DNA of 27,903 nucleotides from a virus. This document shows, one piece after another, positions 1-24,400 of the stretch. The stretch spans positions 1 through 27,903 of the IMG/VR virus record IMGVR_UViG_3300045107_000692. One strand, 5' to 3'. A model generated the notes under the pieces. That model ran no database searches, was not told where the DNA came from, and saw only the letters and a program-made list of their open reading frames with translations. The position numbers and the translations under genes are program-made. Positions within the stretch are counted from its first letter, which is position 1, and each line of letters starts with the position of its first letter.

Positions 1-2949
1 CTGGACGCCCTCGGGGACGCCACGCTTCGCCGGCTCACCTGGGAAGGACTCGTCGGTGAGCGTGCTGGTGTCAAAGGCCGTCTGCCCGCGGGGGAGCACC
101 CGGCGCGCATCACCTTTCGGAAGCGCGCGGCGTTCCGTCGTGCCGCTCTTCTCGTTCTTGTAGGCGTCCTCGACGCTCGAGCCCACGAAGCCGAGCGCCT
201 GGGTGCCCTTCGGCATGATGGCCTGCAGCTGGGCGATCATCGCCTCCAACTCCGGCAGGCCCTGCGTCTCGACCAAGAAGTCAGTGCCGGAGCGCGCCAC
301 CATGCGCCCGGGCGCGAGCTCGCTCAGCTTCGCGCCGACCAGCCGAAGAAGGCGGTTGGTGACCTCGTGCCCGCCCTTCGGTGCGTCGTTGATGCCCTTC
401 ACGTCGGGCACCGTCACGAGGCCGACCTGCGTGCCAGGCGTGCGCGTCGTCTCGTCCCAGGCGCGACGGGTGTTGAGTCCGGTCACGTCGTCGACGAAGA
501 GCATCTCCGCGCGCTTCTCGGGCGTGAGCCCGCGCGCGAAGTCCTCCACCGTCGGCTCGTCGCCGAGCTCGGCCGCCACTTCCGCGTCGCTCGGCTCGTC
601 AACCGCGGCCGCCGGCACTTCGGCACGTCGCGTGCCTTCCTGGTCGCCGCTGTGGAAGAGCAACGGAGCGGTCGGGAACAACTCGCGCACGCTGACGCCT
701 TCGTCGTCGATGGCGGTCTCGATGAACGTGCGCATCAGCGCGCCTGACTTCAACGCCTCCGCCCGCGGTCGGCCCGCCTCGACGAGCGACTGCACGTGCT
801 CGTCGACCAGCCGGTCCAGGTGCGCCGCGTCGTCGAGCTTCGCCGACTGCTCATCGACGAGCGCCTGAGTCCGCGCGTCGAGTTCCGCCTTCTGCGCTTC
901 ACGCTGGCGCGGCGTGAGCGCGTGGGGCTCGGTGGTGGTGTCCTCGACGAGCGCCTGGCCGACCTCGGAGTTCCCCCACGTGGAGAGCACCTTCTCCATC
1001 GGCACTTCGACCTTGCCGCCGGTGGCGGCCGCGTCGAGCAGCTTCGCCGGCGCGTCGTCGCCGAGCAGCTTCGTCACTTCGGCGTTGGTCTCGTCTCCGT
1101 TCTTCCCCTCGTTCTGGAAGTACGTGATGAGCTGGTGCGCGTCGACGTAGAGCGACTTCACCGGCGCTCCGCCGTTCTCGACCGAAGCGTCCTCCACCAT
1201 CTTCGCGAAAGCGCCGGGCGCGGCCTGCACCGCGGGCAACTTCGCCATCTCGAGGAGCGGCCCCACCTGGCGCTGCTCCGCCTGGGACTTTGAGTCGGAC
1301 GTCTGCGTGAGCCCGAGCGTCAGGCCGGACTGCACTGCTCCGAAGAGGCCCGCGCCGAGCGCGCCGGCCTCCGCGTCCGCGAGCACCTGCTGCATCTCGA
1401 CCGGCGCGCGCTTCTGGAGCTTGTCGTCCTTCGCCGATGCGGCGATGTAGGCGCCGAGCTGGTCGACGGCATTCTGAGCACCCTCGGTGAGCCCTTCGGT
1501 GCCCGTCGATTCGAACCACTCGCGGGCGAGGTTGCCCACGAGACGCCGGAACGTCGGGTCGTGCGCGAGCATGTCCTTCACCCGACCCGGCAGGAGCCCC
1601 TGGAGTCCCTTCGTCTGCTTGTTGAAGGACACGAGCTCGAGGCCGGTCTTCAGAAGGCCCATCACGACGGCGCCGCCGGCCGCCTCGCCAGGGCTGAGAC
1701 GCTGGTGACCGTCCGTCTCGAGTTCGCGCAGCTCCTTGTAGCTGCTGCCGGCTTCGAGGTTGAACGTGCCCCACGCCGCGCCGACGCGCGCGCCGGTCGG
1801 GGCGAACGTCTTCGCGCCCAGCATCGCGCCCTCGACCGCGCCGGCGGGGGTCTTGGTGGCCACCGCTCCTGCAGCAGCTCCAGCTACGGCACCAACGCCA
1901 CCCGCCACGCCGGCGCCCTCGACGGCCTGCTTCGCGACCTGGACGGTGGAAACGCCGCCCTGAATGCCGACCGAGAGGTCGCGCATGATGCCGGAGTCGT
2001 CGCCGTACGCGCGCGGCGTGGCCTCGAGCTCAGCGTCGGCGATTTCTTTCCGGAGGTCGGCGACGTCGCCCGGGCCGCCGTTCTCCGCAACCATCAGCTG
2101 GAAGTGCTTCCTGGAGAGGTCGAGTTGCGCAGCTGACTCCATGCCGCGCACGAGCAGGGTCACTCCGCGGGCCGCCAGCGAGTCGTCGTTCTTCAGCAGC
2201 GTGCTCTTCGCGTCCTGGCGCTCGACCGTGGCCTTCGGCGTGTCGCGTGCCACGCGCTCCTTCTCGACCGCTGCGCGCTGCTCCGGGGTCATCGGCTGGA
2301 ACGCGTCGTTCGCCTCTTGCTTGGCCTTCTCGTCGCCAACCACGAGCGAGTTCCAGAATGCAGCCGCGTTCTGCAGCAGCTGACGGTCTGCTTCGCGAGC
2401 GGTGCCCTTCTCCTCTTCGACCTGCCGGCGCAGCATCTCGTCGTGCTTGTCGCGGAGCCAGTCGGTCGCGCGGTTGAAGTTGCGAACGATGGGGCCGATT
2501 TCCTTCGACGACATCACGAGTTCGCCGAGGTCGGGGTTCTCGAGCAGCACCTTCGCCAGCTGGGGGTTGTCGCGCTCCCAGGCGTCGGCATCGAAGGCGG
2601 CCGCCTCTGCCGTCTTCTTGAACGCCGGGAGGTTCGCTCTCACCGTGTCGAACGGGATGGCGAGCGAGCGGGAGATGGCGGCCGTGCGCGCCGCGTCGTC
2701 CTCGTTCGTCAGCTGCGACGCCTTGAATGCGGCGCGGAGGCGGTCTTGCCGGAGCCGGCGCGTCTGATCGGCCGCCTCCTTCGACACGTCGGCCGTGGTG
2801 AAGCCGATGACGGACGGCGCGAAGTCGGAGGTGGGGTCGGTGCGGCCGCGGCGGTCGAGCGCGTCGAGCTCGCCCATCTCGTCGTCGGAGAGTTCCTTCT
2901 TCCCCGAGAGCTCTTCGAGCCGGGACATCTCTTCGTCGGAGAGGCTCAC
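1..2949 (-). CDS. Large internal virion/ejection protein with GGDEF-like domain (partial, C-terminus off window)
   Basis: 983 codons are visible and the frame is open through the left edge, so the C-terminus is missing. The GTG start at 2949 sits in a GTGA overlap with the stop of the upstream gene. The position, last in the tail/internal-protein series, matches T7 gp16-type ejection proteins, which enter the host envelope with the DNA. Residues about 328-395 are very Gly/Ala rich, as is common in such proteins. No transglycosylase is evident in the visible part. Residues about 820-905 resemble a GGDEF domain: DDVTGLNTRRAW at 820, GIND ending at 855 followed by GGH, and ARSGTDF with SGTDF at 887-891. 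The metal-binding Asp before GIND is replaced (VTVPDVK) and the signature is SGTDF, so diguanylate cyclase activity is unlikely. The gene could instead be called a phage polyvalent protein. Confidence 0.8.
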   Translation of the reverse strand, partial: MSLSDEEMSRLEELSGKKELSDDEMGELDALDRRGRTDPTSDFAPSVIGFTTADVSKEAADQTRRLRQDRLRAAFKASQLTNEDDAARTAAISRSLAIPFDTVRANLPAFKKTAEAAAFDADAWERDNPQLAKVLLENPDLGELVMSSKEIGPIVRNFNRATDWLRDKHDEMLRRQVEEEKGTAREADRQLLQNAAAFWNSLVVGDEKAKQEANDAFQPMTPEQRAAVEKERVARDTPKATVERQDAKSTLLKNDDSLAARGVTLLVRGMESAAQLDLSRKHFQLMVAENGGPGDVADLRKEIADAELEATPRAYGDDSGIMRDLSVGIQGGVSTVQVAKQAVEGAGVAGGVGAVAGAAAGAVATKTPAGAVEGAMLGAKTFAPTGARVGAAWGTFNLEAGSSYKELRELETDGHQRLSPGEAAGGAVVMGLLKTGLELVSFNKQTKGLQGLLPGRVKDMLAHDPTFRRLVGNLAREWFESTGTEGLTEGAQNAVDQLGAYIAASAKDDKLQKRAPVEMQQVLADAEAGALGAGLFGAVQSGLTLGLTQTSDSKSQAEQRQVGPLLEMAKLPAVQAAPGAFAKMVEDASVENGGAPVKSLYVDAHQLITYFQNEGKNGDETNAEVTKLLGDDAPAKLLDAAATGGKVEVPMEKVLSTWGNSEVGQALVEDTTTEPHALTPRQREAQKAELDARTQALVDEQSAKLDDAAHLDRLVDEHVQSLVEAGRPRAEALKSGALMRTFIETAIDDEGVSVRELFPTAPLLFHSGDQEGTRRAEVPAAAVDEPSDAEVAAELGDEPTVEDFARGLTPEKRAEMLFVDDVTGLNTRRAWDETTRTPGTQVGLVTVPDVKGINDAPKGGHEVTNRLLRLVGAKLSELAPGRMVARSGTDFLVETQGLPELEAMIAQLQAIMPKGTQALGFVGSSVEDAYKNEKSGTTERRALPKGDARRVLPRGQTAFDTSTLTDESFPGEPAKRGVPEGVQ

Positions 2950-4715
2950 TTCGCGACCCACTTTCCGTTTCGACGCACCCACTCCACGCCGTTGATGGTC
3001 TTCGTCTCACCGTCGGCCGGCCCCTTCGCTTCCTTGGGTGGCTCGCTCGGGAGGTCGATGGTCGGCACCTGCACGGTGCTGTTGAAGAAGAAGCCCTCTT
3101 CCTCTTTCGCCGTCATCGAGGTCATGCGCGCCTCGAGGCCGGCCAGCGCTTCCTCGTCCAGCGGCTTCCCGCCGTTCTTCTGGAGCTCCTGCCGGTACCA
3201 GTCGAGAGCACGGCCGACGCGCTCGTTGAGCACCGACTCGTTCACCTTCTGGCCCTTCTTCAGCTTCCCGCCCATGAAGCGGCGGAGCGTCGACTCGAAG
3301 CGGCGCGCGATGGTGGCGTCGCTCTTTGCGTCCTTCGCGTCGGCGCGCTGCGTGAGCTCGACCGCGCGCGTGCGTGCCCGTTCCACCTGGTCTTTCGAGA
3401 CCGAGACATCGGTGCCGCTCTCGTCGCCGACGAGGTTGGTGAAGTCGGTGAGAATCTCGTCGACGTCGCGCGAGGGGTCGAGCAGCAGCTGACGCTCGGC
3501 GTACCAGCGCCAGCGCTGATCGAGGTCGTCCTGTGCGGCCTTCGCAGCTCGCCGCTGCTCACCCGTGCCGCGCCGGGCGATCATCCACGCGCGCGCGTCG
3601 GCCGCCTGGCGACGCTTCCGGGCGAGCAAATAGCCGGGGTCGTACTTCTCGAGGAACGCCAGCGTTGCGCCCGGAATGGGCTGGTTGTGCAGGTCGGCGA
3701 GGTCGACGGCCTTCCGCTGCTCCCTGATGCGGTCCTGCTTGATGCCGTCCTCGGTGCGGATGCGAAGCTCGAGCTGGCGCTGGGCGTCGTCGCGAGCGTC
3801 GCCGAGGTCAGAGAGGTCGAGCCCGTCACGAAGCGCGCGCTCGTCGACGAAGCCGTCTTCGTTGCGCGACTTCTCGACCATCGCGTCCACCAGCTCCAGA
3901 CCATCGGCGACTCGACGGTCGCGATCGCGCCCTCGCCGCGCACGCTCCACCATGGTCTTCGCCTCGTCGAAGCGGGTGCCGAGCGTCTCCTGGTTGGTGC
4001 GACGCGCCGCGCCGTTGACCGCCTCCTCGCGATTGAGGAAGGCCTCGGCACCGTCGATATCGCCACGCGCCAGGAGCCCCTTGAGCCGAGCGAAGGCCGC
4101 GCGGCTCTGGAAGTCGGCGACGGCCTGCGTGCCCTGCTCCTCGCTCAGCTGGTTGTCGCGGATGTCGCGAACGACGTCGGACTCGAGGTGGTTGAACTCG
4201 TCGGTCCCCTCGCCGCTCTCGAAGAAGGCCAGCGCGTGGTCCTGCCGCGCGCGCAGCGTGGCGCCGCGAGCGGCCTCGAATTCGTTGCTCACGTGCGACT
4301 CGATGGCCTGCGAGCCGGACACGACGGGCGCAACGGAGCGCTCGAGGAAGTCCGCGCGCGCCTGTGGGTCCGAGATGCTGTCTGCGATTTCCTTCCGCTT
4401 GTCCTGCAGCGCCTTCAGCCGGTCGGCGCGCTGCTCGCTCGCGTTCAACCCCTTCGTCTTCTTCGCCTCCGCGACCTGCTCCTGCACGGCCAGCTGCAGG
4501 TTGAGGTTGGCGTCGGCGAGCACCAGCGCGTTGGCCTCCTTCTTCGCCTTCGCGTCGACGTCTTGCTGCTGGGCGATGAGCTTCTCGCCGGCGCCGAAGA
4601 CGGCACCGAGGCCCTTCGCCACCTCTCCGGCGATGCGTGAACCCGAGTTGTCGGGCTCCGTCAGGAGCGGGCGGGTGTCGCCATAGGGCGACTCGATGGG
4701 AACTCGAGGAGCCAT
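2946..4715 (-). CDS. Internal virion protein, T7 gp15-like position
   Basis: 589 aa. ATG at 4715 lies one base after the upstream stop, behind a GGGAGGG ribosome-binding sequence that overlaps the previous gene. The protein is highly charged and rich in Glu, Arg, Ala and Gln, with long predicted helical or coiled-coil stretches and no signal peptide. The N-terminus contains a Gly/Ala segment (about residues 28-45). It lies between a small gp14-like protein and the giant ejection protein, the order found for the three internal core proteins of T7-like podoviruses. I assign it by size, composition and order; no diagnostic motif was recognised. Its stop overlaps the GTG of the next gene by four bases, suggesting translational coupling and fixed stoichiometry. 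Confidence 0.7.
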   Translation of the reverse strand: MAPRVPIESPYGDTRPLLTEPDNSGSRIAGEVAKGLGAVFGAGEKLIAQQQDVDAKAKKEANALVLADANLNLQLAVQEQVAEAKKTKGLNASEQRADRLKALQDKRKEIADSISDPQARADFLERSVAPVVSGSQAIESHVSNEFEAARGATLRARQDHALAFFESGEGTDEFNHLESDVVRDIRDNQLSEEQGTQAVADFQSRAAFARLKGLLARGDIDGAEAFLNREEAVNGAARRTNQETLGTRFDEAKTMVERARRGRDRDRRVADGLELVDAMVEKSRNEDGFVDERALRDGLDLSDLGDARDDAQRQLELRIRTEDGIKQDRIREQRKAVDLADLHNQPIPGATLAFLEKYDPGYLLARKRRQAADARAWMIARRGTGEQRRAAKAAQDDLDQRWRWYAERQLLLDPSRDVDEILTDFTNLVGDESGTDVSVSKDQVERARTRAVELTQRADAKDAKSDATIARRFESTLRRFMGGKLKKGQKVNESVLNERVGRALDWYRQELQKNGGKPLDEEALAGLEARMTSMTAKEEEGFFFNSTVQVPTIDLPSEPPKEAKGPADGETKTINGVEWVRRNGKWVAK

Positions 4716-4716
4716 C

Positions 4717-5202
4717 TCACCCTCCCGTTCCCATCTTCAGCGCGGCCGCGACGCCGTTGCTGACGAGCCCGGTGAAGAGCTCGTCGTCGGCCGTGCCGCC
4801 CGTCACGCCGCCGTCCTGGTACTTGCGGCGCAGCTTGTCGCGCTCGCGCGTGTACGCCTGGGCGGAACGCCGGTGACCCAGCGCATCGGCGCGCGCGTTG
4901 TTGACGGCCTGAGCCGCGTCGAGACTTGAGAGGGAGGTGTCGAGCAAGTCGGAGGCCGTGCCCGTCGAGGTGTCGACGCCGCTCGCGGCCAACGCGGCAC
5001 GCGTCGCCTCGGCGCTGGCCGTGCCCCGCTGCTTCAGCTCGCCGGCAGCACGCGAGCCGCGATTCAGCGCGGCGACCGCGTTGGCGTTCTCCGCGTCGCG
5101 CGACTGCTGGAACGCGGCCATGTTCTGGGCGGCCGCCTCTCGGTTCTCGAGGTGCTGCTGCACCTTCGCGAACGACTCCGGAATGACGGACAGAGCACCC
5201 AT
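4717..5202 (-). CDS. Internal virion protein, T7 gp14-like
   Basis: 161 aa. ATG at 5202 directly abuts the upstream TGA. The sequence is Ala-rich and helical, with many Gln, Asn and Arg residues and a short Gly/Ala C-terminus (ending GTGG). Size, composition and place between a gp13-like protein and a gp15-like protein match the smallest of the three ejected core proteins of T7-type phages, which forms an outer-membrane channel early in infection. That function is from family knowledge; no catalytic motif is visible and none is expected. The close spacing on both sides shows it is translated within the tail/internal-protein operon. Confidence 0.6.
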   Translation of the reverse strand: MGALSVIPESFAKVQQHLENREAAAQNMAAFQQSRDAENANAVAALNRGSRAAGELKQRGTASAEATRAALAASGVDTSTGTASDLLDTSLSSLDAAQAVNNARADALGHRRSAQAYTRERDKLRRKYQDGGVTGGTADDELFTGLVSNGVAAALKMGTGG

Positions 5203-5670
5203 TCACAGCTCCTTCGTGACGAGGTGGAAAGGTACCAACGAGGTCGGACGAGGAAGAGGCGCGTGGATGACGAAGCCGAGCGCGCGCAGCCACGTGAGGG
5301 CCTTGGTGTAGCGCGCATCGACGCGATTCCACGCCACCGTGACGTAGGTGCGCAGCTCGAGCAGCAGCTGCTTCATGGCGCGGTGGAAGGCCATCGGGTG
5401 CTGCTCGACGAGCGTCGACGTCAGCAGCCACACCTGGGCCGGCGCGCGGTACGGGAAGTGACGCACGCCATCGCGCTCGACCGCGGCGCCGGCGATGGCC
5501 ACCACCTCGCCTTCGTGCACCAGCGCACGGCAGATGGTGCTCGACTTCCACGAGAGGAAGCACGCGTCGAGTCGCCCGAAGCCGAGCGCGCGCACCTCCG
5601 CCACGTCGGCCTCGCGAAGCGTGAGGGCGAGCTGAATCGTGTGCAGCTTGGTGGCGGGGAGGATGATCAC
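5203..5670 (-). CDS. T7 gp13/DUF2833-like GNAT-fold virion-associated protein
   Basis: 155 aa from GTG 5670, which overlaps the tail-tube gene stop as GTGA. It begins with a beta-strand (IILPATKLHT) and has a central segment reading HEGEVVAIAG, then WLLTSTLVEQHPMAF, and the C-terminal pattern WNRVDARYTKALTWLRALGF. The last stretch is the typical N-x-v-D-x-x-N-x-x-x-i-x-W-L-x-x-x-G-F of phage GNAT-like proteins (DUF2833, T7 gp13 family), with the usual Asn after VDAR replaced by Tyr. These proteins are required for virion assembly in T7; whether they acetylate anything is unknown. A longer reading starting at 5763 is unlikely because it would lie inside the previous gene. Confidence 0.75.
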   Translation of the reverse strand: MIILPATKLHTIQLALTLREADVAEVRALGFGRLDACFLSWKSSTICRALVHEGEVVAIAGAAVERDGVRHFPYRAPAQVWLLTSTLVEQHPMAFHRAMKQLLLELRTYVTVAWNRVDARYTKALTWLRALGFVIHAPLPRPTSLVPFHLVTKEL

Positions 5671-7934
5671 GAGCCACCGACTTCGAGCTCGCGCTCGAGG
5701 CCGAGCACGATGGTGGGCAGCGGCCGCTCCTGGCGAACGAAGGCCCGGCCGGTGCGCGCCCACTTGCCTTTCACCGTCATCACCAGCTGGGTGGTGGTCG
5801 GCGTCTCCGTCCCGAAGCCATCGCTCGCGTTCCGCACGCGCGTGGGCAGCAGGTGCGCGTCGTCTTCACCGACGAGCATTCCGGTCGAGCGGTCGACGTC
5901 GATGCCCACCTTCACCACCGTCTTCGTGTTGAGCCGGGCAGTCGGCGAGTCGAGTGAGCCGAGGTCGCAGACGTAGGGCAGCCCCACGACACCCGACACG
6001 GTGGCGCCGTCGTTGGCGACGTCGAAGGGAGCGAGCTGGATTTCGCCGCCGAGCACGCGCAGCGGCCCCTGTGGTGGATTCCCGGGCGCAACCACCCACA
6101 CGTCGCGCCCTTCGAAGCGACCGAGGCCAGAGAGCACGTTGTCGGCTGCTGGGGCGAGGCTGTCGAAGAATTCCACCGAGTCGAGCGCGAAGGCGTCGTC
6201 GCCCATGTCGTCGGTGACGGTGGCGGGCGTCACGCGGTTGCGGTTGAACATCCGCTCGATGAGCGTCAGCCCTCCGCGGCGGACCGCCATCACCACCACG
6301 TCGACCTTCCCGACGCGAACGCTGCACACCGAGAGCACCGTGTCGGTAACTTCTGCGCCGCCGAGAGTGCGCGCGCCGGTCTCGTGTCGCGCCCAGCCCC
6401 AGAGGCCATCACCGCCGGGCGTGAGGGTGAGAAGCGTGCCGTCCGAGCGCACCGCCCACACCACGCGCCAGGGCACGCGCTGGAAGCACCAGCTGACAAT
6501 CTGCGCCTCCTCGAAGAGGTGGGCGGCGTGCCACGAGATGTCCTTGCTGACGTACTCCTGCCCGTTCTTCACGAGCGCGCGCACGCCGCTCCCCATGCTG
6601 CTCACGTAGAGGACGGGCCCGCCTGGAATGACGAGCGGCTTGAGCTGCGACGCGCCTTCACCGTCCTCGAGGTGCGGCACCGTCGACGTCGGCGTCACAG
6701 CACCACCGAGGTCGTCCGCGCCGCGAACGCTCCAGACCGACGTGTCCGTGAAGATGAGCAGCGACTTGTGCGTGACGAGGGAGGCGGCCGCCTCCAACTT
6801 GTCGGCCACCAGCGCGAGCTCGATGGGGGAGGTGGCGACCGCGAAGGGCGCCACCGGCCTGTCGTGGTTGGCCCATTCATCGGTGGCGGAGAACGCGACC
6901 CGCTGATCGAGCGCGAACACGCGGCGCTGCTGGAAGAACGTGACGGCGACCGGCCGCGCATCGTACGCAGCGCCGCCCGTCTGGAAGGGCGCCTCACCGC
7001 GCAGCGGCTGGCGCGCGTAGTCGGGCTCCTCGCCGAAGTCGATGAAGTCCTGCGCGTAGCGCGTGGTGCCGATGAAGCCGTAGAGCTTCCCGCGCCCGCG
7101 GTAGTACACGACGCCCGCGGGCTCCCAGTTCGAGTACCCGCTGAGCGAGCCGACGAGCGGCCCGAAGTTCGGGTGCCGGAGCGTGATGGGCGCGTCGTCG
7201 AAGAGCACCACGAGGCCGTCCGCCGGCAGCGGTTGCACGCTGGCGCGCGTGGTGCCGTCGAAGTACTCGGCGACCTGCACGGGCATCGACTCGACTTCTT
7301 CGCCGGTCTGGTTGTGCCGGAAGATGACGGACACGAGGTACCGCCACTCGCGCGGCGGGTGCTGCGCGTCGAGCGTGAAGAGCGTCACGCCGCCCACCAG
7401 CATCGGCCCGAGCACGAGGTTGTTGGCGGCCGTCTTGAAGACGGGCACGAGGGATTGCGCGTCGGTGGGCGCGTTGCCCGGAGGGGTGAAGCGCGCGGGC
7501 GTCAGCAACCACGTCGCCGAGAGGCCAGGCTGCGGCGCGCGCAACTCCATCGGCACCGCGCTCGGGTGCGTCAGCGTCATCACGAAGCCGGTCTGCGCCC
7601 ACTGCACGGTAGCGAGAGCGTCGGCCGCCCATGGGGTGATGAGCTCGATGCCGAGGTAGCCGTTGTCCGGGTCGTGCACGCGGAGGTAATTCGCGCCGAG
7701 CTCGAGCACGTAGGCCGTCGTCTGGCTGACGGCGAAGGGGATGAGCACCACCGAGTCGTTGCGCGCTTGCGCGATGAGCCGCGTACCCGGGCGGCTCACC
7801 GGCTTGCCCTGCTGGTTGATGAACCAGTTCAGGACGGTGCGCGCGCCGCGGCGGTAGAGCTCCGAGTCGGTGGCCCCGTAGAGGTGGCGATGCAACTCGC
7901 CGGCGCTCCATGACGTCTGTCGCTCAGCGGACAC
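5667..7934 (-). CDS. Tail tubular protein B-like (tail hub/nozzle)
   Basis: 755 aa from GTG 7934, overlapping the adaptor gene stop by 11 bases. The N-terminus carries the hallmark of podoviral gp12-like tail proteins: a SWSAGELHRHLYG motif, then a YRRGARTVLNWFINQQGKP stretch and SRPGTRL, equivalent to the usual 'G-x-S-x-x-l-x-G-R-x-D...Y...l-x-N-f...G...R-x-G-T'. The remainder is beta-rich with many Trp and Gly residues, consistent with the propeller-like body of tail nozzles. The length matches the family's usual 700-800 aa. Upstream adaptor and downstream gp13-like genes agree with this place in the tail module. Confidence 0.85.
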   Translation of the reverse strand: MSAERQTSWSAGELHRHLYGATDSELYRRGARTVLNWFINQQGKPVSRPGTRLIAQARNDSVVLIPFAVSQTTAYVLELGANYLRVHDPDNGYLGIELITPWAADALATVQWAQTGFVMTLTHPSAVPMELRAPQPGLSATWLLTPARFTPPGNAPTDAQSLVPVFKTAANNLVLGPMLVGGVTLFTLDAQHPPREWRYLVSVIFRHNQTGEEVESMPVQVAEYFDGTTRASVQPLPADGLVVLFDDAPITLRHPNFGPLVGSLSGYSNWEPAGVVYYRGRGKLYGFIGTTRYAQDFIDFGEEPDYARQPLRGEAPFQTGGAAYDARPVAVTFFQQRRVFALDQRVAFSATDEWANHDRPVAPFAVATSPIELALVADKLEAAASLVTHKSLLIFTDTSVWSVRGADDLGGAVTPTSTVPHLEDGEGASQLKPLVIPGGPVLYVSSMGSGVRALVKNGQEYVSKDISWHAAHLFEEAQIVSWCFQRVPWRVVWAVRSDGTLLTLTPGGDGLWGWARHETGARTLGGAEVTDTVLSVCSVRVGKVDVVVMAVRRGGLTLIERMFNRNRVTPATVTDDMGDDAFALDSVEFFDSLAPAADNVLSGLGRFEGRDVWVVAPGNPPQGPLRVLGGEIQLAPFDVANDGATVSGVVGLPYVCDLGSLDSPTARLNTKTVVKVGIDVDRSTGMLVGEDDAHLLPTRVRNASDGFGTETPTTTQLVMTVKGKWARTGRAFVRQERPLPTIVLGLERELEVGGS

Positions 7935-8529
7935 GAATCCACTCCGCGTCAGGCTCCTCGTCGCGCTGGCCGGAGTTCTCGTCGGCAGCTGCGGCCTCGA
8001 GGTACGCCTTTTCGGCCGCAACCTGCGCCGCCGGCATGAGGGTGCGCTTCACCGGCAGTGCGCCGATGAGGCGCATCGCCAGCTCGGTCGCCACCGCCTT
8101 CACGAAGTGCGGCGGCCACAGCGCCACCGTGGTGAGACGCGCGGTGTAGCGGAGCACCGCCTCTTCGACGTCGGTGCAGATGAGCCACCCGGAGCGAGCG
8201 TCGTTCAGCTGCTTCGCGAAGGGCGGCGGCTCGCCGCGCGCCGGGTTCCGGTTCTCGAGGTCGACTTCGCGCGGCTCAAGGCAGTCGGCCGGCTGGACGT
8301 AGCAGACGCCCCACCCGCGACGCGTCTCGGTCGAGAGCGCCAGCTGAGCGGTGACGCTGGCGAAGTGCCAGTCACGCTTCGCCAGGAGCTCGTCGCGCAC
8401 CGAGGCGAAGAAGACGCTGCAGGCTTCAGCCTCGGCAGACTGCTCCCCGAGGTCATCGATGTACTGGCGGTGACCGATGAGGCCGAGCGCGAGGTTGCAG
8501 ACCTCGGCTTCTGTGGTCACCGCCGGCAT
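7924..8529 (-). CDS. Tail tubular protein A-like adaptor (T7 gp11-like)
   Basis: 201 aa from ATG 8529. The N-terminus reads EVCNLALGLIGHRQYI, then a patch of acidic residues, an A-x-x-C-x-x-F helix (residues about 33-41) and RDELLAKRDWHFA. This series (N-L-A-L..l-G...A..c...y...R-D-x-L-L...W-x-F-A) is typical of podoviral head-tail adaptors that bind the portal and start the tail tube. The C-terminal half contains a helical pair ending in an acidic tail. Its stop overlaps the GTG of the tail-tube-B-like gene. Confidence is high for the family; it was not checked by search. Confidence 0.85.
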   Translation of the reverse strand: MPAVTTEAEVCNLALGLIGHRQYIDDLGEQSAEAEACSVFFASVRDELLAKRDWHFASVTAQLALSTETRRGWGVCYVQPADCLEPREVDLENRNPARGEPPPFAKQLNDARSGWLICTDVEEAVLRYTARLTTVALWPPHFVKAVATELAMRLIGALPVKRTLMPAAQVAAEKAYLEAAAADENSGQRDEEPDAEWIRVR

Positions 8530-8545
8530 TCATCGCCCTTCCGGC

Positions 8546-9118
8546 TCAGACCGCCTGATCAGCGGCGCGGGTGCGCGGAGCGACCGGGGTCGCCAGCGCC
8601 TTCGACTTCTCGCTCTCGACGATGCGCTCGAGCGCGCGGGACGGCCGCTCGTCGATGAGGGTGATCTCCTCGCCGGGCGCGTACACCCTGTCCTTCGCGC
8701 GGGGGTACGGCAGACGCACGAGGTAGCGAATCGCACCCTTGAACTTCGCGGGGATGCGGATGCCCTTCGGGCCGGTCGACTCGGGGCCGGTGACGAAGGT
8801 CTCCTCGACGGCCTTGTCGAGCACCTTGCGCAGCTCTTCACCGCGCGCACGCAGGCTGTTCAGCTTCGCGCGGCGCTCGAGGCGCTCGACCTCGACCTCG
8901 AGCATGGCGAGCTCTTCCGCCTCGGTGCGCGTCGCCATGTTCTTCGGGTCGGCGAAGAAGGCCTGCATCACCTCGTAGGGCTCCTGCACGAGGGTCTCGC
9001 GCATCTCCGGGTCCGCGTACGTCTTGCGGATTTCGGCGATGTCCTTCTCGCTCAGGCGCACGCGCTTCTGCGCACGCTCGTCGGTCTGCTTCTCGTTCTG
9101 CTTCGTCGGCTCAGCCAT
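8546..9118 (-). CDS. Hypothetical coiled-coil protein of the head module
   Basis: 190 aa. ATG 9118 is preceded by GAGG with a six-base spacer. The first 30 residues are Lys/Glu/Gln-rich. Residues about 60-110 form a charged heptad-like helix (EEL, MLEVEVERLERRA and so on). A small folded segment follows, with IRIPAKFKGAIRYLVRLPY and YAPGEEITL, that looks like a beta-rich domain. It lies between the cement protein and the gp11-like adaptor, where phages often encode a head-completion or fibre-like accessory. I do not recognise the family and assign no function. Confidence 0.7.
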   Translation of the reverse strand: MAEPTKQNEKQTDERAQKRVRLSEKDIAEIRKTYADPEMRETLVQEPYEVMQAFFADPKNMATRTEAEELAMLEVEVERLERRAKLNSLRARGEELRKVLDKAVEETFVTGPESTGPKGIRIPAKFKGAIRYLVRLPYPRAKDRVYAPGEEITLIDERPSRALERIVESEKSKALATPVAPRTRAADQAV

Positions 9119-9212
9119 CGGGGACCTCGGTGATCAATGGGACTGCGGTGCTTCGGAATTCTTCGGGAGAACTCCCGCTCCCCACGATGGAGAGCGGGTG
9201 CTGGACGCGCAT
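9111..9212 (-). CDS. Possible 33-aa leader peptide upstream of the coiled-coil gene
   Basis: A short reading frame starts at ATG 9212 behind GGTGTGGG and ends with TGA at 9111-9113, overlapping the start of the next gene by eight bases. Codons keep G or C in most third positions, and the frame fills the largest gap (9119-9244) in the late operon. It also covers two alternative hairpins. It may be a coupling leader, a real small protein or chance; there is no homology evidence. Confidence 0.2.
   Translation of the reverse strand: MRVQHPLSIVGSGSSPEEFRSTAVPLITEVPDG
9166..9198 (-). repeat. Two overlapping, mutually exclusive inverted repeats between head genes
   Basis: On the plus strand CCCGCTC (9174-9180) pairs with GAGCGGG (9192-9198) across 11 bases. 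The nearby palindromic stretch CGGGAG/CTCCCG just before it uses some of the same bases. No T-run follows on the minus strand, so a classical terminator is not supported; an mRNA structure affecting expression of the following gene is possible. Confidence 0.3.
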
Positions 9213-9244
9213 CAGGCCCACACCGTCGCGCGCCAGCACGTCGG

Positions 9245-9712
9245 TTACGAGCTGGAGCCGGGCGCGGTCTGCACGCCGGACTCGGTGACGACGCCCGCGG
9301 TGATCTTCCCGGCCGTCATCGGGCCGGTCGCCACGGTGTAGTTGGCGCCGATGTAGCGATCGGCGTCGAGCGCGTGCTGGGGCACGTTCAGGAAGAACTT
9401 CTTCCCCGGAACGAGGAGCGCCTTGCCGATGGGGCCGGTGGAGCCCAGCACGGTCGGAGAACCGAGAGCCGGGTCATCGTCGGCCACGAGGTCGATCTGC
9501 AACGTCGCGGCGCCGGCGGCGGTGAACTGCTCCGTCACGGTGAACATGAACATGAGCTCGGGCGAGCGGCTCGGGTCGTCCTTCGGCGTGTTGCCGAGGT
9601 TGTCGAGCGTGAAGCCCGGCGTGCCGCCCTTGCGGTCGATCTTGTCCGTGCTGACGGCCGTGACCGTGATGGCCTGCTTGTCCGAAATGAGGTTCTGGCG
9701 ATCGAAACGCAT
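9245..9712 (-). CDS. Bbp16-like capsid cement/decoration protein
   Basis: 155 aa from ATG 9712. The N-terminus MRFDRQNLISDKQAITVTAVSTDKI follows the family pattern '..d.q.lfSdaQait.ta.St..iDlg' of the Bordetella phage BPP-1 Bbp16 cement proteins. A mid-protein 'TVTEQFTAAGAATLQIDLVAD' region and a late 'LLVPGKKFFLNVPQ...DRYIGANYTV' region match the two beta-sheets of these jelly-roll-like proteins. Cement proteins trimerise on the capsid outside and stabilise the mature head. The position directly downstream of the major capsid gene supports this. The start lacks a strong ribosome-binding sequence; a hairpin lies just upstream. Confidence 0.85.
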   Translation of the reverse strand: MRFDRQNLISDKQAITVTAVSTDKIDRKGGTPGFTLDNLGNTPKDDPSRSPELMFMFTVTEQFTAAGAATLQIDLVADDDPALGSPTVLGSTGPIGKALLVPGKKFFLNVPQHALDADRYIGANYTVATGPMTAGKITAGVVTESGVQTAPGSSS

Positions 9713-9775: not shown

Positions 9776-10774
9776 TCAGGTGACCGGGCTCTCGGTGTTG
9801 AGGATGGCGTCCGAGCGGTGGATGGGGACGCCCGAGAACATGAGCACCGGCTTGCCGCCGACGTTCTCGTAGGTGAGCGTGCTGTTCTTCGTCGAGTCGA
9901 TGCACTGACGGCGCAGGAACGAGCGCACGCGGCGGCTCATGTAGAAGACCGGCTTGCAGCCCTCGAGCGAGTTGATCTGCTCGAGCATCTCGGCCAGCTT
10001 GAAGATGAGCGCGTTGCCCGTGTCGACGAGCACGTCGTCGTCGATGTTGCAGAGGCGCACGACGTAGCGCGCGTCCTCGACGCACAGACCGCACTTCCAC
10101 TGGAAGTGAGTGCGGTACGCGCGGAACTTCTTGTTGTTCGAGTCCGCCTCGTACTCGATGCCCATGTCTTCCTGCGACAGGCCGGCGGTGCCCTCTTCCC
10201 CCTTCGGGTACAGGCCGTACACCTTGCGGTCACCGTGACCGATGAGCCACACGGACGAGTTGTCGGCGCCGGCGGCCGCGCCGAATGAGATGACCTGCGA
10301 CTGGTACGTCAGGCCCGAGAGCGCATCGAAGCGCGGCGCGAGGCCGTGAATCTGCTCGGGGTCGGTCTTGGTCGACGCGTAGAAGAACGCGGTCTCCAGG
10401 GTCCGGTAGAACGACTGAACGAAGGCCTTGTCCTCGCTCTGGCGGTACGCGTCGGAGTTGCCGTTGCGCTTCGCGAGATCGACGTCGACGACGGAGCGGC
10501 CTTCCAGCATGCCGAGCGTCTCGGTGTACTGGCCGGTGTTCGACTTCGCGGCGTCGATGCCTTCGTTGTACCGGCGCCACGTGAGGGCCGGCAGCGTGGT
10601 GCGCGTCGTGACGAGGTGACCGTCCACGCCGTTCGCTTCCTTCCACTGCAAGTCCTGCAGCAGCGGCGACTCGATGGTCAGCGTCTCGGCGATTTCAGCG
10701 ATGGACCCGTCGGGGTCCATGCGCTTCGCGAGGTCAAAGAGCGTCGGGAGCCCGTTCTGGTTGATGGTTGCCAC
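9776..10774 (-). CDS. Major capsid protein, GP7/BPP-1-like
   Basis: 332 aa from GTG 10774, which follows AAGGGA at a seven-base distance. It begins MATINQNGLPTLFDLAKRMD and continues with an N-terminal helical arm (EIAETLTIESPLLQDLQW), then LPALTWRRYNEG, typical of podoviral shell proteins of the 'GP7' type used by BPP-1-like phages. The middle DMGIEYEAD and the beta-strand HFQWKCGLCVEDARYVVRL are also usual. The C-terminal GGKPVLMFSGVPIHRSDAIL is the recurring 'y.g.Pi...DaI' end of HK97-fold capsids of this group. It lies between scaffold and cement genes, as expected. It is the main structural protein of the head. Confidence 0.9.
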   Translation of the reverse strand: MATINQNGLPTLFDLAKRMDPDGSIAEIAETLTIESPLLQDLQWKEANGVDGHLVTTRTTLPALTWRRYNEGIDAAKSNTGQYTETLGMLEGRSVVDVDLAKRNGNSDAYRQSEDKAFVQSFYRTLETAFFYASTKTDPEQIHGLAPRFDALSGLTYQSQVISFGAAAGADNSSVWLIGHGDRKVYGLYPKGEEGTAGLSQEDMGIEYEADSNNKKFRAYRTHFQWKCGLCVEDARYVVRLCNIDDDVLVDTGNALIFKLAEMLEQINSLEGCKPVFYMSRRVRSFLRRQCIDSTKNSTLTYENVGGKPVLMFSGVPIHRSDAILNTESPVT

Positions 10775-11892: not shown

Positions 11893-13626
11893 TTAGAGGC
11901 TGACGCCCAGCCCCTTCGCGATGCGGCTGAGCGCGGTGTCGCTCGTCGCGTCGATGCTCCCCAAGTCCTTCGCCGCCTTCGCGCCCACGGCCGCCTGCTC
12001 GACGGCCTGCTGCTGCTGCGCCTGCTTCGCCCGCGCCTGACGGAGACCGGCCACGGCCTCGTCGCTGCGGATGATGGACGGAGGCACGCCCAGCGCGTCG
12101 GCGAGCTCGTCAATCACCTGGTCGACGTCGAGCTTGTCCAACACGCCCGGCTCGACCGCGGCGAGGTTGGCGGCGAACGTGGCGATGCGCTCGATGCCCG
12201 TGGTGGCGAGCAGCTTCTGCGCGGCCGCCATGATGCTGATGTACTCCACCTTGAGCGGTCGACCCTGGAGCGGCTCCGGCGCGGGCGGGATGCGGCCCTG
12301 GCGCAGCGCGATGGCGAAGATGCGGTCGATGAGCGGGTCGAGCAGCTCGTCCTGCAGCGACTCGAGCACGGTGCCAAGCTGCAACAGCTTCTCCTCGCGG
12401 CGCTCCTGCACCTCGCGCGCAGTCATCTCGCGCTCGGAGTTCTGCAACATCAGCCACAGGTCTGCGTAGAAGGCCTGGTCGATGCGCTCCTGGTGGATGA
12501 GGATTTCCGCCGACACCGCCGGCAGCGCCTGGTGGTTGACCTCGAAGGCGGGGCGCAGCGTCTGGTTGGCACCGAGCGCGTCCACGAAGTCCGTCTGGCC
12601 GGGCAGCAGCTTGAGCCGCGACGTCGCAGCTGCCGACGGCGCCACCATCGGCGGCGAGATGATGCGCTCGGCCGCCTGCCCCTTCCGCTTCTCGAGCGTC
12701 TGCAACGCGCGCGCGTCACCGAGCGCGAGGTCCCCCGGCTGGCCGTGGCCGTACACGTCGTCCCCGACGGTGCCCCAGCGCGGCGTCATGAAGGGCTTCT
12801 CGTGGTAGCCGGCGCGGCGCAGGAAACCCGCGTTCGCCGGCAGCGCCGCCTCCCACCACACGCTGAGCCACGGCTTGCCCTCGGCGCCGTACGCGCCGGG
12901 GATGTGCTTGTCGTTCGGGAAGATGGCGTGCTTCAGCTCCACCGTCTCGTCGACGCGGCCGGCCGTCGCTGCGTTGCGGATGGCCTCGCTGCACCGCTCG
13001 AGGCCGAACTTCTTGATGCACTGGGCGACGGTGCGCGTGGTGCGCCGGAAGAGCGTGTCGATGTCGCCGCGCGCGGAGGCCGCGAGGCAGTAGGTGCCGA
13101 GCGTGAAGTGGTACGCGCGCGCGCCGTCTTCCTCGTCCTCGTCGACGAGCATCGCCGACACGCCGAACGGGCCGATGTCCTCGTAGAGCGAGGGCAGCAC
13201 CTTGTAGATGTTGGTCTGCGCGATGAGCTCACGCAGCACGCCCTCGACGTCGGCGAGCCACGCCTTCACGTCGCCGTCTTCCTTCAGCTCGTCGTCACCG
13301 TTGACGGTGAGGCGGAACCACGGGCGCGAGGGGCTGGTGATGCCGGCCATCATCCCGCCGGCCAGCGTGCGCGCCGCCATGATGGGCCGCCCGTTGATGA
13401 TGTCGATGAAGTCCTTGCGGCTCGCCTTGTTGGTGTCGGTCTGCGTGCGACGGAAGCCGCGCGGACGGAAGTAGTGCGCCAGCTGCTCCCAGTCCTTGAG
13501 CCACGTCGAGCGGATGGTCTCCAGCGCAGCGAAGCGCCGGTCGAGCGCCTTGACGGCCTCGTGCTCCTCGCTCGAGCCGCGCTTCGCCTTCTTCCGCGTC
13601 TCCGCTTCCTCGGCCGTGTCGAGCAT
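11893..13626 (-). CDS. Portal (head-to-tail connector) protein, T7-like
   Basis: 577 aa from ATG 13626, one base after the stop of the upstream small gene (TGAGATG). Early residues contain LETIRSTWLKDWEQLAHYFRPR, a usual opening of the T7-type connector family (Head-tail_con). GGMMAGITSPSRPWFRL (about residues 89-105) and DIGPFGVSAMLVDED (about 149-163) are equally characteristic. A later acidic/Gln-rich helical tail with RQARAKQAQQQQAVEQ is present. Connectors form the dodecameric portal for DNA packaging and tail attachment. Length (500-600 aa) agrees. A start 10 codons earlier is possible but would overlap the preceding gene. Confidence 0.93.
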   Translation of the reverse strand: MLDTAEEAETRKKAKRGSSEEHEAVKALDRRFAALETIRSTWLKDWEQLAHYFRPRGFRRTQTDTNKASRKDFIDIINGRPIMAARTLAGGMMAGITSPSRPWFRLTVNGDDELKEDGDVKAWLADVEGVLRELIAQTNIYKVLPSLYEDIGPFGVSAMLVDEDEEDGARAYHFTLGTYCLAASARGDIDTLFRRTTRTVAQCIKKFGLERCSEAIRNAATAGRVDETVELKHAIFPNDKHIPGAYGAEGKPWLSVWWEAALPANAGFLRRAGYHEKPFMTPRWGTVGDDVYGHGQPGDLALGDARALQTLEKRKGQAAERIISPPMVAPSAAATSRLKLLPGQTDFVDALGANQTLRPAFEVNHQALPAVSAEILIHQERIDQAFYADLWLMLQNSEREMTAREVQERREEKLLQLGTVLESLQDELLDPLIDRIFAIALRQGRIPPAPEPLQGRPLKVEYISIMAAAQKLLATTGIERIATFAANLAAVEPGVLDKLDVDQVIDELADALGVPPSIIRSDEAVAGLRQARAKQAQQQQAVEQAAVGAKAAKDLGSIDATSDTALSRIAKGLGVSL

Positions 13627-13627
13627 C

Positions 13628-13969
13628 TCAGTACTCCCCGAGCAGCGACTGGCCACCGAGCGCCGTGGTGAGCGCCCCGGCCGTGCTGCCCTTCCGCGCG
13701 TTGCGCACGCGCCCGTTGGTGTCGCGCATCACGAAGTCGGCGATGTCGGGCGGGAGGTCTTCGAAGCCGGCCTTCCCGTCGCCTCGCTTCCCGAGCGCGT
13801 CACCGCCGAGCCCCGAGCGAATGAGGCCGCGACGGCGCAGCGCTTCGAGGTACGTGGTGTCGCTCGAGCGGAACGCCTGTGGACGCGCCTTGTGCGTGTC
13901 TTCGAACTGGGCGCGCTCCTCGTCCGACATGTTGATGCGCGCGGTGGTGCCTTCCTGTCCCATGCCCAT
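13628..13969 (-). CDS. Small hypothetical protein between terminase and portal
   Basis: 113 aa. ATG 13969 lies two bases after the terminase stop, with GGAGG at the right distance inside the terminase end; a second ATG two codons later (13963) is also possible. The sequence is polar and mostly helical (DEERAQFEDTHKARPQAF, YLEALRRRGLIRSG) and ends LGGQSLLGEY. No recognised motif. The place between terminase and portal, with tight coupling to both, argues for a role in packaging or head assembly, but this is inference from position only. Confidence 0.7.
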   Translation of the reverse strand: MGMGQEGTTARINMSDEERAQFEDTHKARPQAFRSSDTTYLEALRRRGLIRSGLGGDALGKRGDGKAGFEDLPPDIADFVMRDTNGRVRNARKGSTAGALTTALGGQSLLGEY

Positions 13970-21097: not shown

Positions 21098-21879
21098 CAC
21101 GTGCCTCGCGCCTTGATGCGTTCCTCGACGGCCGAGACCAGCGAGTGCGTGAAGCGCCGCACCTCGCCATCAGAGTCGATCACCGTGTCGGCGAAGTCGG
21201 CGAGGTCGAGCGTCGCGGCGAGCAACCAGTCACGTTCGATCACCACGTCGTGCGCGACGTCGACGAGGTCGTGCGTGCTCCACGAGCAACCCTCGGGAGG
21301 TGCGCCGCGAAGCAGGTTGATCAACGTGCCGGCCTGCCCACCACGGCGAATGACCGAATCTTCGAGGTGCGAGACTTCCGCCTCCGCCTCGAGCGCACGC
21401 GTGCGCCACTCGTCGAGCGTCTTGTCGGCGCGAGCGGCGTCGAGCTGCGTCCAGACCTCTGCGAGACCGCGCTTCACCTCGTCGGCGCTGGCGGTGTTCG
21501 GGTCGAAGCCCCACCGCACGAGGCCGAAGACCACCAGCTGAATCTCGGCGAGCTCGCGCTGGTGCTGCGTCTTTGCCGCCGCGAGGTCGCCCTTGAGTGA
21601 GTTGCGCTCGGTGAGGAACGCGACCGCGTCCGCCTTGAACTTGTCGAGTTCGCCGAACGTGGCGCCGCTCTCTCGCGCGCACCGGTCCAACTCCTCGCGG
21701 TGACGCTTCGCGAGGCCGCGCGTGTTCTCTTCCAACTCACGAACGCGCGCGCGGAGCTGCTGCACCTCGATTTCAATCTCAGAGAGGCCTTGATCACCGC
21801 CGGCCTTCTCGAGCACCTGGTTCCTGCAGCGCTCGCAACTCCAGCCCTCGCAGTGCACGCACAACGTCTTCGTCGTCAT
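21094..21879 (-). CDS. Coiled-coil protein with N-terminal Cys pairs
   Basis: 261 aa from ATG 21879, behind AAGGAAG. Residues about 7-17 contain CVHCEGWSCERC, two Cys pairs suited to zinc binding. A long charged coiled coil follows, from about residue 30 to 105 (EIEVQQLRARVRELEENTRGL, LAAAKTQHQRELAEI), and again from 140 to 180. The C-terminal part is acidic and helical. It resembles structural or accessory proteins of phage early regions but no named family is recognised. It is in an ATGA overlap with the D12 methyltransferase stop. Confidence 0.65.
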   Translation of the reverse strand: MTTKTLCVHCEGWSCERCRNQVLEKAGGDQGLSEIEIEVQQLRARVRELEENTRGLAKRHREELDRCARESGATFGELDKFKADAVAFLTERNSLKGDLAAAKTQHQRELAEIQLVVFGLVRWGFDPNTASADEVKRGLAEVWTQLDAARADKTLDEWRTRALEAEAEVSHLEDSVIRRGGQAGTLINLLRGAPPEGCSWSTHDLVDVAHDVVIERDWLLAATLDLADFADTVIDSDGEVRRFTHSLVSAVEERIKARGTW

Positions 21880-23039
21880 GACGCTTCCTTTCGGTTGAAG
21901 AGATCGCCCTGCGCGACGGCGGCGGCGCACGCGGGGGAGAACCAGATGCGCTCATTGCTGCCGGCGTCAGCGTTGCCGGCAGCTGCGGAGTAGCCACCCG
22001 ACGCTTTCCACTCGTGCTTCCACCAACCGTGTTTCTCGAGGGCGTTGTGCTCGCCTTCGAGGCCGCACAGAGCGATGCGCAGCTTCGGGTTGGCGCCGTT
22101 CTCCTCGCACCACACGCGCACGTCGTCGGAGATGGTGTTGCTGTCGACGCCGTAGAGTCCTTCGGTGCGCAGCTCGCCGAGGTACGGCGGGTCGATGAAG
22201 ACGCCGGTGACGCCGACCTGCTCGAGCGCGGAAGGCGTCATCACGCGCGTCCAGTCGCCACAGCAAACGCGCACGCGGCGGAGGCGGTCGCAGAGGCGGC
22301 GCATCCAGTCGAGCACGGGCGCCTGCGAGTGCACCCCCGTGCCACTTCCGCTTCCGTTGCCGAGGCCCGGCTTCTTACGCGTGAGACCGGAACTGTGAAT
22401 GCCCTGCCCGGCCGCACCGCGCGAGCCGCGGAGCAGCGGCGTCGTCTCCCACTCGGAAGAGACGCTCTGCGCGTGGATGCCACGCTGGCGACCGTTGACC
22501 TGGAACCTCTGCCAGTTCACCGAGTTCGCGTGCGAGTGCACGCCACGGCCGCCGCGCTGGAGCTGAATGCGCCGGCGCTGCTCGTGCGGCACTTCACCGC
22601 GCGGCCTCGCTTCGGGGTTCCAGTTCCCTTCGCTGCACCAGCCCGAGCCGATCCACGCGCACAAGCCCCACACCCACCAGCCGGCGATGAGCGGGTCGAA
22701 GTAGAGCGCGTCCGTCTTCATGCGCTCGCGGAAGTCGCCCTGCCAAACGAGGTAGCGGTGCCGAGCGTGCAGGTCGGCTTCGTTCACCGGCCAGTCGGCG
22801 TGGTGCGCGACGGCCTCGGGGTCGAACTTCACCGCCCGCCAGAAGTTCGCGAGGTAGCAGTCCGCATCGTTGACGGTCTCGATGAGCGGCTCGCCTTCGC
22901 GCGCGAGCATCACCGCCAAGCTGCCGGCGAACGGCTCGACGTAGTTGGGCACGTCGTGACCGAACGCGCGCCACACGTCGGCCGCGACGCGACGCTTTCC
23001 ACCGAACCACGGGAACGGAGCTCGAAGCGTCTCGGTCAC
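21876..23039 (-). CDS. D12-class DNA adenine-N6 methyltransferase
   Basis: 387 aa from GTG 23039 (GTGA overlap). It has the SAM-binding motif PFPWFGGKRR (residues 8-16), the motif YVEPFAGSLAVML (33-45), VNDAD (56-60) and catalytic DPPY (283-286). These identify the Dam-like D12 group, which transfers a methyl to adenine N6. Residues 150-250, in the usual target-recognition region, contain four imperfect repeats G[VI]H[SA] at 166, 187, 213 and 235, joined by Gly/Arg-rich linkers. The protein is longer than Dam (about 280 aa) because of that insert. Likely role: protection from host restriction. Confidence 0.92.
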   Translation of the reverse strand: MTETLRAPFPWFGGKRRVAADVWRAFGHDVPNYVEPFAGSLAVMLAREGEPLIETVNDADCYLANFWRAVKFDPEAVAHHADWPVNEADLHARHRYLVWQGDFRERMKTDALYFDPLIAGWWVWGLCAWIGSGWCSEGNWNPEARPRGEVPHEQRRRIQLQRGGRGVHSHANSVNWQRFQVNGRQRGIHAQSVSSEWETTPLLRGSRGAAGQGIHSSGLTRKKPGLGNGSGSGTGVHSQAPVLDWMRRLCDRLRRVRVCCGDWTRVMTPSALEQVGVTGVFIDPPYLGELRTEGLYGVDSNTISDDVRVWCEENGANPKLRIALCGLEGEHNALEKHGWWKHEWKASGGYSAAAGNADAGSNERIWFSPACAAAVAQGDLFNRKEAS

Positions 23040-24400
23040 GCTGCACCTCCGAAGAGAATCGAGTCGACGAGGCCGATGCGCCGGCCGATCCACCGCATCA
23101 CGCAAACGGCCATCGAATTTCCGAGCGCGGCGTAGCGCGTCGAGTCGCTCGCCCCGGGCACGAGCGTCCAATCGTCGGGGAAGTCCTGCAGCCGCTCGCA
23201 CTCACGCGGCGTCAGTCGACGCACCTTCCAGCCGAGCTCGGCCTGCGCGTTCAGCAGCTCGACCGACTTGTCGACCCACTGATTGCTTCCCCACTTCTCG
23301 CCGTCGGTCGCCTCGAGTGTTGGCGCAACAATGGGCGTGCCGCGTCCGCTTCCGTCTTCCGAAGCGTCGGCGCCCTCGGAGAGCAGCGCGTGCGTGACGT
23401 CGCCGGTGATGCACGAGTACGCGATGTGCGGCGGACGAGCCGACTTCGCGAGGGCGGCCGAGTCACCAGCGCAGCTCGAGCGATTCTCCGGATGCGTCAC
23501 CTGCGTCGGGTCGAACGCGAGCAGCGGAGTCTGGTTGTTCACCGTCTTCCCGAGGTTGGAAGAGGTGAGGGTGAAGCCCTCACCGCCTTCGGCGCTCGTT
23601 CCGATGATCAAGCCCAGCGCGTTGTCGACGTCGACGCGTCGCTGCTGCGTCTGCAACGTAGGCGCGACTTCCGCCACGAACGCGCGGCCGTTGGAAGGCA
23701 AGTCGCTCTGCTGCTGGTTGCCGCGCAGCGTGCCCGCCACCTCGGGCACGAAGGTCATTCGGTCGGTGTCGCTGTTCCAGCCACGGCGCGAAGTGCCGCT
23801 TCCAACGGTGCCGGCAACGTCTTCCCGCGTTTTGCTGCGCGGCGAAGGATTCCTGCGCAGGCCCGTGCGCTCAAAAAGTACCGCTCCGGCAGCGGGCCCA
23901 CCTCCAAGACATCCGACAAGGAAGACTCGACGGCGGCGCTGGGGAACTCCGAAGAATCGAGCGTCCAGCACTCGCCACGCACAGTCATACCCGAGGTCGA
24001 CCAGCCCCCCGACGATGGCTCCAAAGTCCCGTCCGCGTTCGGACGACAAGACTCCAGGGACGTTTTCCCAACAGAGCCAGCGGGGCCGAAGCGCCTGAGC
24101 CAGTCGAGCAAATTCAAGCGCGAGGTTGCCGCGCTCGTCAGCAAGTCCAGCTCGGAGTCCTGCGACGGAGAAGGACTGGCAGGGCGTTCCTCCGACGAGG
24201 AGGTCGATGGAGCGATCAGCTCCAGAAAGTCTGTCTGCGAGGCCAAGCATGCTCCCGTGGTTGGTGATGGACGGGAAGCGATGAGCGAGGACGAGCGAGG
24301 GGAACGTGGCGATCTCGGAGAACCACGCGGCCTTCCAGCCGAGCGGCTCCCACGCGACCGAGGCGGCTTCGATGCCTGAGCACACGCTCCCGAAGCGCAT
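23036..24400 (-). CDS. DNA cytosine-C5 methyltransferase
   Basis: 454 aa from ATG 24400. All main motifs are present: I at MRFGSVCSGIEAAS, IV TPCQSF with the catalytic Cys at 74, VI ENVPG (112-116), VIII RRRRVFLVG (155-163), and X YAALGNSMAV (423-432). Residues about 180-380 form a long variable part in which the phrases VAGTL, VAPTL and VAPTLEAT recur, and contains DASEDGSGRGTPIV, a stretch typical of phage-type C5 enzymes. It is the first gene of the long leftward operon, so it is made early, consistent with methylation of phage DNA against restriction. A 5-base-arm hairpin (24410-24422) lies next to the weak ribosome-binding site. Confidence 0.95.
   Translation of the reverse strand: MRFGSVCSGIEAASVAWEPLGWKAAWFSEIATFPSLVLAHRFPSITNHGSMLGLADRLSGADRSIDLLVGGTPCQSFSVAGLRAGLADERGNLALEFARLAQALRPRWLCWENVPGVLSSERGRDFGAIVGGLVDLGYDCAWRVLDARFFGVPQRRRRVFLVGCLGGGPAAGAVLFERTGLRRNPSPRSKTREDVAGTVGSGTSRRGWNSDTDRMTFVPEVAGTLRGNQQQSDLPSNGRAFVAEVAPTLQTQQRRVDVDNALGLIIGTSAEGGEGFTLTSSNLGKTVNNQTPLLAFDPTQVTHPENRSSCAGDSAALAKSARPPHIAYSCITGDVTHALLSEGADASEDGSGRGTPIVAPTLEATDGEKWGSNQWVDKSVELLNAQAELGWKVRRLTPRECERLQDFPDDWTLVPGASDSTRYAALGNSMAVCVMRWIGRRIGLVDSILFGGAA

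Follow-up and report, generated by a model that had tools for sequence, protein, structure and literature searches.

Degenerate GGDEF-fold cargo in a giant polyvalent protein from a short-tailed phage

The giant polyvalent protein encoded at the edge of IMG/VR record IMGVR_UViG_3300045107_000692 carries a degenerate domain with a predicted GGDEF fold (positions 106–555, minus strand) at a site that holds exchangeable cargo in its relatives. The window analyzed here is the whole record, a linear fragment of 27,903 bases. Taken together, the data are probably best explained by a GGDEF-fold cargo, most likely non-catalytic and perhaps kept for nucleotide binding, in a giant protein that is very probably ejected. 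The earlier note on this DNA knew of no well-described case of this kind. GGDEF domains of polyvalent proteins were already reported in 2017 (PMC5512222), so the case is not unprecedented, and in no fewer than six independent virus contigs the same gene encodes an intact GGDEF domain. What is new here is the degenerate copy, its exchangeable slot in the Carin1 gp32-like family and the frequency of GGDEF domains there. In the limited library of literature that was searched, we found no earlier description of the slot or of the GGDEF clade and no papers on Carin1 or on GGDEF domains in internal virion proteins.

The virion genes of the window lie on the minus strand and include those for the terminase, the portal or head-tail connecting protein (positions 11893–13656; PF12236, E = 3.9e-151), a major capsid protein of the GP7 (epsilon15) type (9776–10774; PF20911, E = 1.3e-102), a tail protein (phrog_394) and the tail nozzle protein (5667–8021; phrog_376, E = 1.2e-90). 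Judged from this gene set, the virus is an epsilon15/Carin1-like short-tailed phage (podovirus). The giant-protein gene (1–2982, minus strand) starts with a GTG at position 2982 and its frame is open to base 1, giving the first 994 or more residues; the 3′ part falls past the contig end, and the record carries no further sequence. A plus-strand open frame at 203–868 was rejected as a gene, as it is a high-GC shadow of the giant gene. The neighboring gene (2946–4715, minus strand) is weakly endolysin/transglycosylase-like (phrog_1044, E = 2e-4).

Residues 64–849 of the giant protein match phrog_9880 (E = 4.5e-23), and the named homologue is gp32 of Cobetia phage Carin1 (PQ119497), a protein of 2,854 residues whose gene adjoins a lysozyme gene, with the nozzle gene close by. 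The two proteins share the N-terminal part, LPD22, a similar gene order (nozzle, lysozyme gene) and the same slot, but the slot of Carin1 gp32 holds a PBECR5 nuclease instead of a GGDEF domain. In the window, LPD22 (large polyvalent protein associated domain 22; 2527–2733, minus strand) is matched weakly (PF18834, E = 4.1e-4, 21 bits against a cut-off of 28.6), whereas in the homologues it scores above the cut-off. The N-terminal region in common with zincin-bearing relatives extends to about residue 783 (634–1908, minus strand); in BLASTP it matched L188 (E = 7e-23) and about 40 others, all matches stopping just before the GGDEF segment, and its hydropathy profile contains three glycine-rich hydrophobic stretches. 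The nozzle gene is likewise upstream in the GGDEF-bearing relatives L161, L169, L235 and L240. Close relatives of the window gene were not found by tblastn in phage records and IMG/VR scans, either with the whole protein or with the segment. On sequence grounds, the window protein is a member of the phrog_9880/Carin1 gp32-like family of giant polyvalent proteins, whose genes lie close to that of the tail nozzle. This agrees with its placement in the earlier note as a large podovirus protein of internal or ejection type; from synteny and family we infer that it is very probably a virion component that leaves the particle together with the DNA.

Homology and predicted fold place the window segment firmly in the GGDEF (diguanylate cyclase) fold superfamily, and the GGDEF fold is established as far as prediction allows. 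The earlier note had proposed this fold from the order of the motifs, with profile comparison and structure prediction as checks, and both bore it out. PF00990 was the top Pfam match of the C-terminal 200 residues, but it was weak (E = 0.044, 14 bits against a cut-off of 23.8). A profile of six phage GGDEF domains, from which the window was left out, gave a significant 29.1 bits on the segment (the best of 20,000 shuffles reached 15.4), and hhalign gave P = 1.1e-6 over 141 columns. When the segment was compared by BLASTP with 138 homologous giant proteins, only GGDEF-bearing ones matched (E = 5e-9), L161 and L233 among them, and tblastn returned L161 and L233 at E = 5e-11 within its candidate set. 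The AlphaFold2 model from the single sequence was modest (pLDDT 59, pTM 0.56), and each of the 12 PDB matches that it gave at E ≤ 0.001 was a GGDEF structure, with diguanylate cyclases first. With 39 relatives aligned (40 sequences), the model reached a pLDDT of 87.8 and a pTM of 0.79, diguanylate cyclases again matched first, and all 47 Foldseek PDB matches at E ≤ 0.001 were GGDEF entries; its superposition on 3mtk with VIA-align had a Z score of 14.7 and an rmsd of 2.1 Å over 129 residues. Both models thus contain a GGDEF palm and not an unrelated fold. In the BFVD library of viral structures, the best match was the GGDEF protein of Bordetella phage CN1. A chance resemblance of motifs without the GGDEF fold would fit the Pfam score under the curated cut-off, but the shuffles, hhalign, BLASTP and the two AlphaFold2 models, one of which was built without any relative, all oppose it; we regard it as refuted by the shuffle control and the two structure predictions, and as having next to no chance of being correct.

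A scan with three of the phage GGDEF domains detected 39 virus contigs, in which the domain is nearly always located within ORFs of ∼1,500 to 5,700 residues. The members of this clade have in common the motifs SIDxDSLKWxND and YHISGDEF and the C-terminal tail ADxxLxxxKxxRExxGxRAxRGxxP. The giant ORFs of L232–L268 represent this compact, phage-specific type, and most of them have no recognized ADLSTFLHE zincin; L247 and L253 are near tail-fiber-like genes. Yuavirus and Vojvodinavirus encode standalone GGDEF proteins (CN1, CN2, YuA gp44 and MP1412) in which the clade motifs are present in part. These proteins resemble the window domain in the compact type and the C-terminal KxxRExxGxRAxRG tail, but they are products of separate small genes of temperate long-tailed phages and their active-site residues are intact; a link to biofilm in lysogens has been proposed for them (PMC8471281). 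The tail and the BLASTP matches to L161 and L233 indicate that the window copy belongs to the phage clade. It is found on a very long branch (7.7 changes per column against a median of 0.64), so its exact place in the clade is unsure.

The motifs of the window copy were compared with those of 41 phage relatives, and the residue roles given here (metal and guanine contacts) are those of PleD-type diguanylate cyclases. The element DDVTGLNTRRAW (457–492, minus strand) is the conserved equivalent of DxLTGLxNRRAF. In VTVPDVKGIND (385–417, minus strand), the equivalent of SIDxDSLKWxND, the first metal-binding Asp (D in 41/41 relatives) is replaced by T and the second Asp of the DxD (D in 38/41) by P, with the Lys, Asn and Asp of the motif retained; a GGH motif is located immediately downstream. 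The hairpin motif (S/G)GDEF has become SGTDF (277–291, minus strand), in which the D and E, each present in 41 of the 41 relatives, are T and D. At the base-contacting Gly-Asp (G in 41/41, D in 38/41) the window has T-N, and a Lys column that is complete in the relatives (41/41) has T. The guanine-contacting Asn, also found in 41/41, is retained, and the guanine-contacting Asp is lost (N). Other retained features are an LTG-like turn, the RR, the K of the SLK motif and the G and F of GGDEF. The C-terminal tail of the clade (ADxxLxxxKxxRExxGxRAxRGxxPxG; 85–165, minus strand) is partly retained, with an Arg and a Pro in place and the invariant Lys lost. In total, the window matches 14 of 26 highly conserved positions, and every other row of the alignment matches at least 17. 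The loci of the 39-contig scan were located by patterns built on intact motifs, which biases the counts of 41/41 towards intact copies; six GGDEF copies that were reached through the C-terminal part of the giant protein (L064, L067, L070, L109, L161 and L169), and are free of this bias, are also intact. The earlier note had placed the motifs correctly on the minus strand, in a domain that proved slightly larger (about 106–555 in place of 240–495), and had recognized the loss of the first metal Asp and the change of GGDEF to SGTDF, both of which are upheld by the column counts; the losses of the second Asp (P), the base-contacting GD (TN) and the invariant Lys (T) were found in addition.

Neither GG(D/E)EF nor a tolerated variant of it is present in the window domain (SGTDF), and the strand-1 metal Asp is T. 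The domain is, in all likelihood, unable to make c-di-GMP, and catalysis is unlikely because the metal site retains no more than one carboxylate. Altered chemistry with another nucleotide or another use of metal, as in mCpol/OptS, was considered, since the hairpin still has an acidic residue, the Asp of SGTDF, the mCpol of OptS is active though it nearly lacks the GGDEF motif (PMC12657218), and the same protein is among the Foldseek matches of the single-sequence model (rank 17). However, Asp6 is still present in the putative active site of OptS mCpol (PMC12657218) and by our reading is the strand-1 Asp, whereas in the window both strand-1 positions are replaced (T and P), only the hairpin Asp is retained and the Lys that is invariant in the relatives is lost. 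Continued catalysis of this altered type is therefore highly improbable.

The surroundings of the domain were analyzed with a search profile made from the conserved C-terminal part of the family, which begins with an HExxH zincin (ADLSTFLHE). In IMG/VR it identified 527 relatives, against 550 for a second query, and bacterial genomes yielded a further 36. A GGDEF domain lies between the N-terminal part and the zincin in 7 of 138 distinct zincin-bearing proteins, or in 6 of 137 once the protein found through GGDEF itself is left out (∼4%); the window protein, with its zincin region past the contig end, is counted separately. PF00990 searches of genomes fail to pick up the window copy itself, so their negatives are not proof of absence, and our own profiles were used instead. 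With Pfam, 72 pre-zincin segments were found to contain ART-PolyVal (24), PBECR5 (11), MuF_C (6), GNAT (6), LPD3 (5), PBECR3 (4) and GGDEF (4), with other domains, including JAB, found in 1–2 segments each. The slot of some family members holds unrelated domains or nothing recognizable. In relatives with a complete N-terminus, the GGDEF domain is located at residues 688–940, ahead of the HExxH zincin, at a distance of some 30 to 1,100 residues from it; in the window, the N-terminal homology stops at about residue 783 and the GGDEF domain begins at about residue 810. The varied pre-zincin domains, the end of the N-terminal homology just before the GGDEF domain and the shared nozzle neighbor indicate that the window domain occupies a position at which this kind of polyvalent protein exchanges its cargo. 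A purely structural role, in which the domain was recruited for assembly of the internal core or of an ejection channel without nucleotide chemistry, would fit a large carrier protein of internal type with glycine-rich hydrophobic stretches, whose gene has that of the tail nozzle nearby in both the window and its relatives. The unrelated or unrecognizable content of the slot elsewhere, however, means that no particular fold is needed for assembly, and we consider this role unlikely.

Intact GGDEF domains occur in the same slot of the ejection-type protein in the giant ORFs of L161, L169, L233, L109, L064, L067 and L070. These are likely phage-carried active diguanylate cyclases and would be functionally more interesting than the window copy. 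Among the 36 bacterial-genome loci of the family, none has a GGDEF domain in the giant ORF. The GGDEF matches of L122 and L141 were rejected as cargo, as they are in separate genes.

Of the roles considered for the window domain, nucleotide binding without catalysis, once the protein has been delivered, is the likeliest, and we put it forward tentatively. The giant protein would be packed in the virion and then ejected into the host with the phage DNA, and the domain, kept as a non-catalytic module, would bind GTP, c-di-GMP or a related cyclic nucleotide once inside the host, much as degenerate GGDEF domains in receptors or regulators may do. The GGDEF domain of LapD is degenerate, and LapD is located in the membrane and senses c-di-GMP through its EAL domain. 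The window domain is similar in having the fold without catalytic residues; LapD is among the PDB matches of both models and was the sole NCBIfam match of the segment (E = 0.04). It differs from LapD in that no EAL domain was seen with Pfam in the visible 994 residues.

A somewhat less probable alternative is an inert relic: an intact GGDEF cargo would have been inherited, its benefit lost, and the domain would be decaying or drifting as a mere spacer to the next domain. The loss of the catalytic set in the window copy only, with the set intact in 41/41 relatives, the very long branch and the frequent exchange of cargo in the slot are in line with this alternative. Against it, the frame is still open with normal codon usage, the single sequence still suffices for prediction of the fold, and several structural residues and the Asn are retained. 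GC at the three codon positions of the domain (0.69/0.48/0.92) equals that of the remaining gene, so the domain still looks like translated sequence, but this measure cannot separate a binding role from a relic, and the long branch is equally expected under a relic. An IMG/VR scan with the window copy and two relatives returned only three already-known contigs and no second degenerate copy; with one sequence in the degenerate state, selection on the domain cannot be measured. The injected dead diguanylate cyclase domain could be a preloaded sponge or decoy for cyclic nucleotides, which would block nucleotide-signaled host defense or c-di-GMP signaling in the first minutes of infection, but we regard this as quite a speculative and unlikely possibility.

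In the survey of Iyer et al. (PMC5512222), GGDEF is listed among the rare domains of phage polyvalent proteins, for example in an Acetonema longum prophage protein. Polyvalent proteins are believed to target host systems at entry, and their GGDEF domains were described as c-di-GMP-generating and proposed to make nucleotide signals (PMC5512222). That proposal stands for the relatives with intact sites. The window protein resembles these proteins in being a giant, multi-module protein that includes a GGDEF domain and would enter the host at invasion, but its active site is lost and its carrier belongs to the Carin1 gp32-like zincin family of short-tailed phages. GGDEF is thus a recurrent cargo of one protein family, beside ADP-ribosyltransferases, nucleases and acetyltransferases, with mostly intact active sites, and a second-messenger enzyme fold is tied to proteins of short-tailed phages that probably reach the host ahead of all phage gene expression. 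This raises the testable question of whether some phages raise or mop up host cyclic dinucleotides at entry.

Other members of the family differ in slot content and gene structure. The phage of L033 (G003) is fairly close to the window phage, with 44% identity in the portal. The slot of its giant ORF (1317–9287) has an ART domain (weak PF18760) and, by eye, a RadC/JAB-like stretch, without GGDEF; its content differs from that of the window, and therefore the cargo varies even among near relatives. In L035 (G012), a GNAT acetyltransferase occupies the slot of the giant ORF (1225–8457), together with a phosphoribosyltransferase match that is weak and does not reach the Pfam cut-off. In L036 (G013; 34–6576), the family protein is apparently split into two adjacent ORFs of 1,334 and 844 residues, the first of which carries ddrB-ParB and GNAT domains. 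Elsewhere in the window, two overlapping DNA methyltransferase genes, one of the D12-type N6-adenine class (PF02086) and one of the C5-cytosine class (PF00145), occupy positions 21876–24400 on the minus strand.
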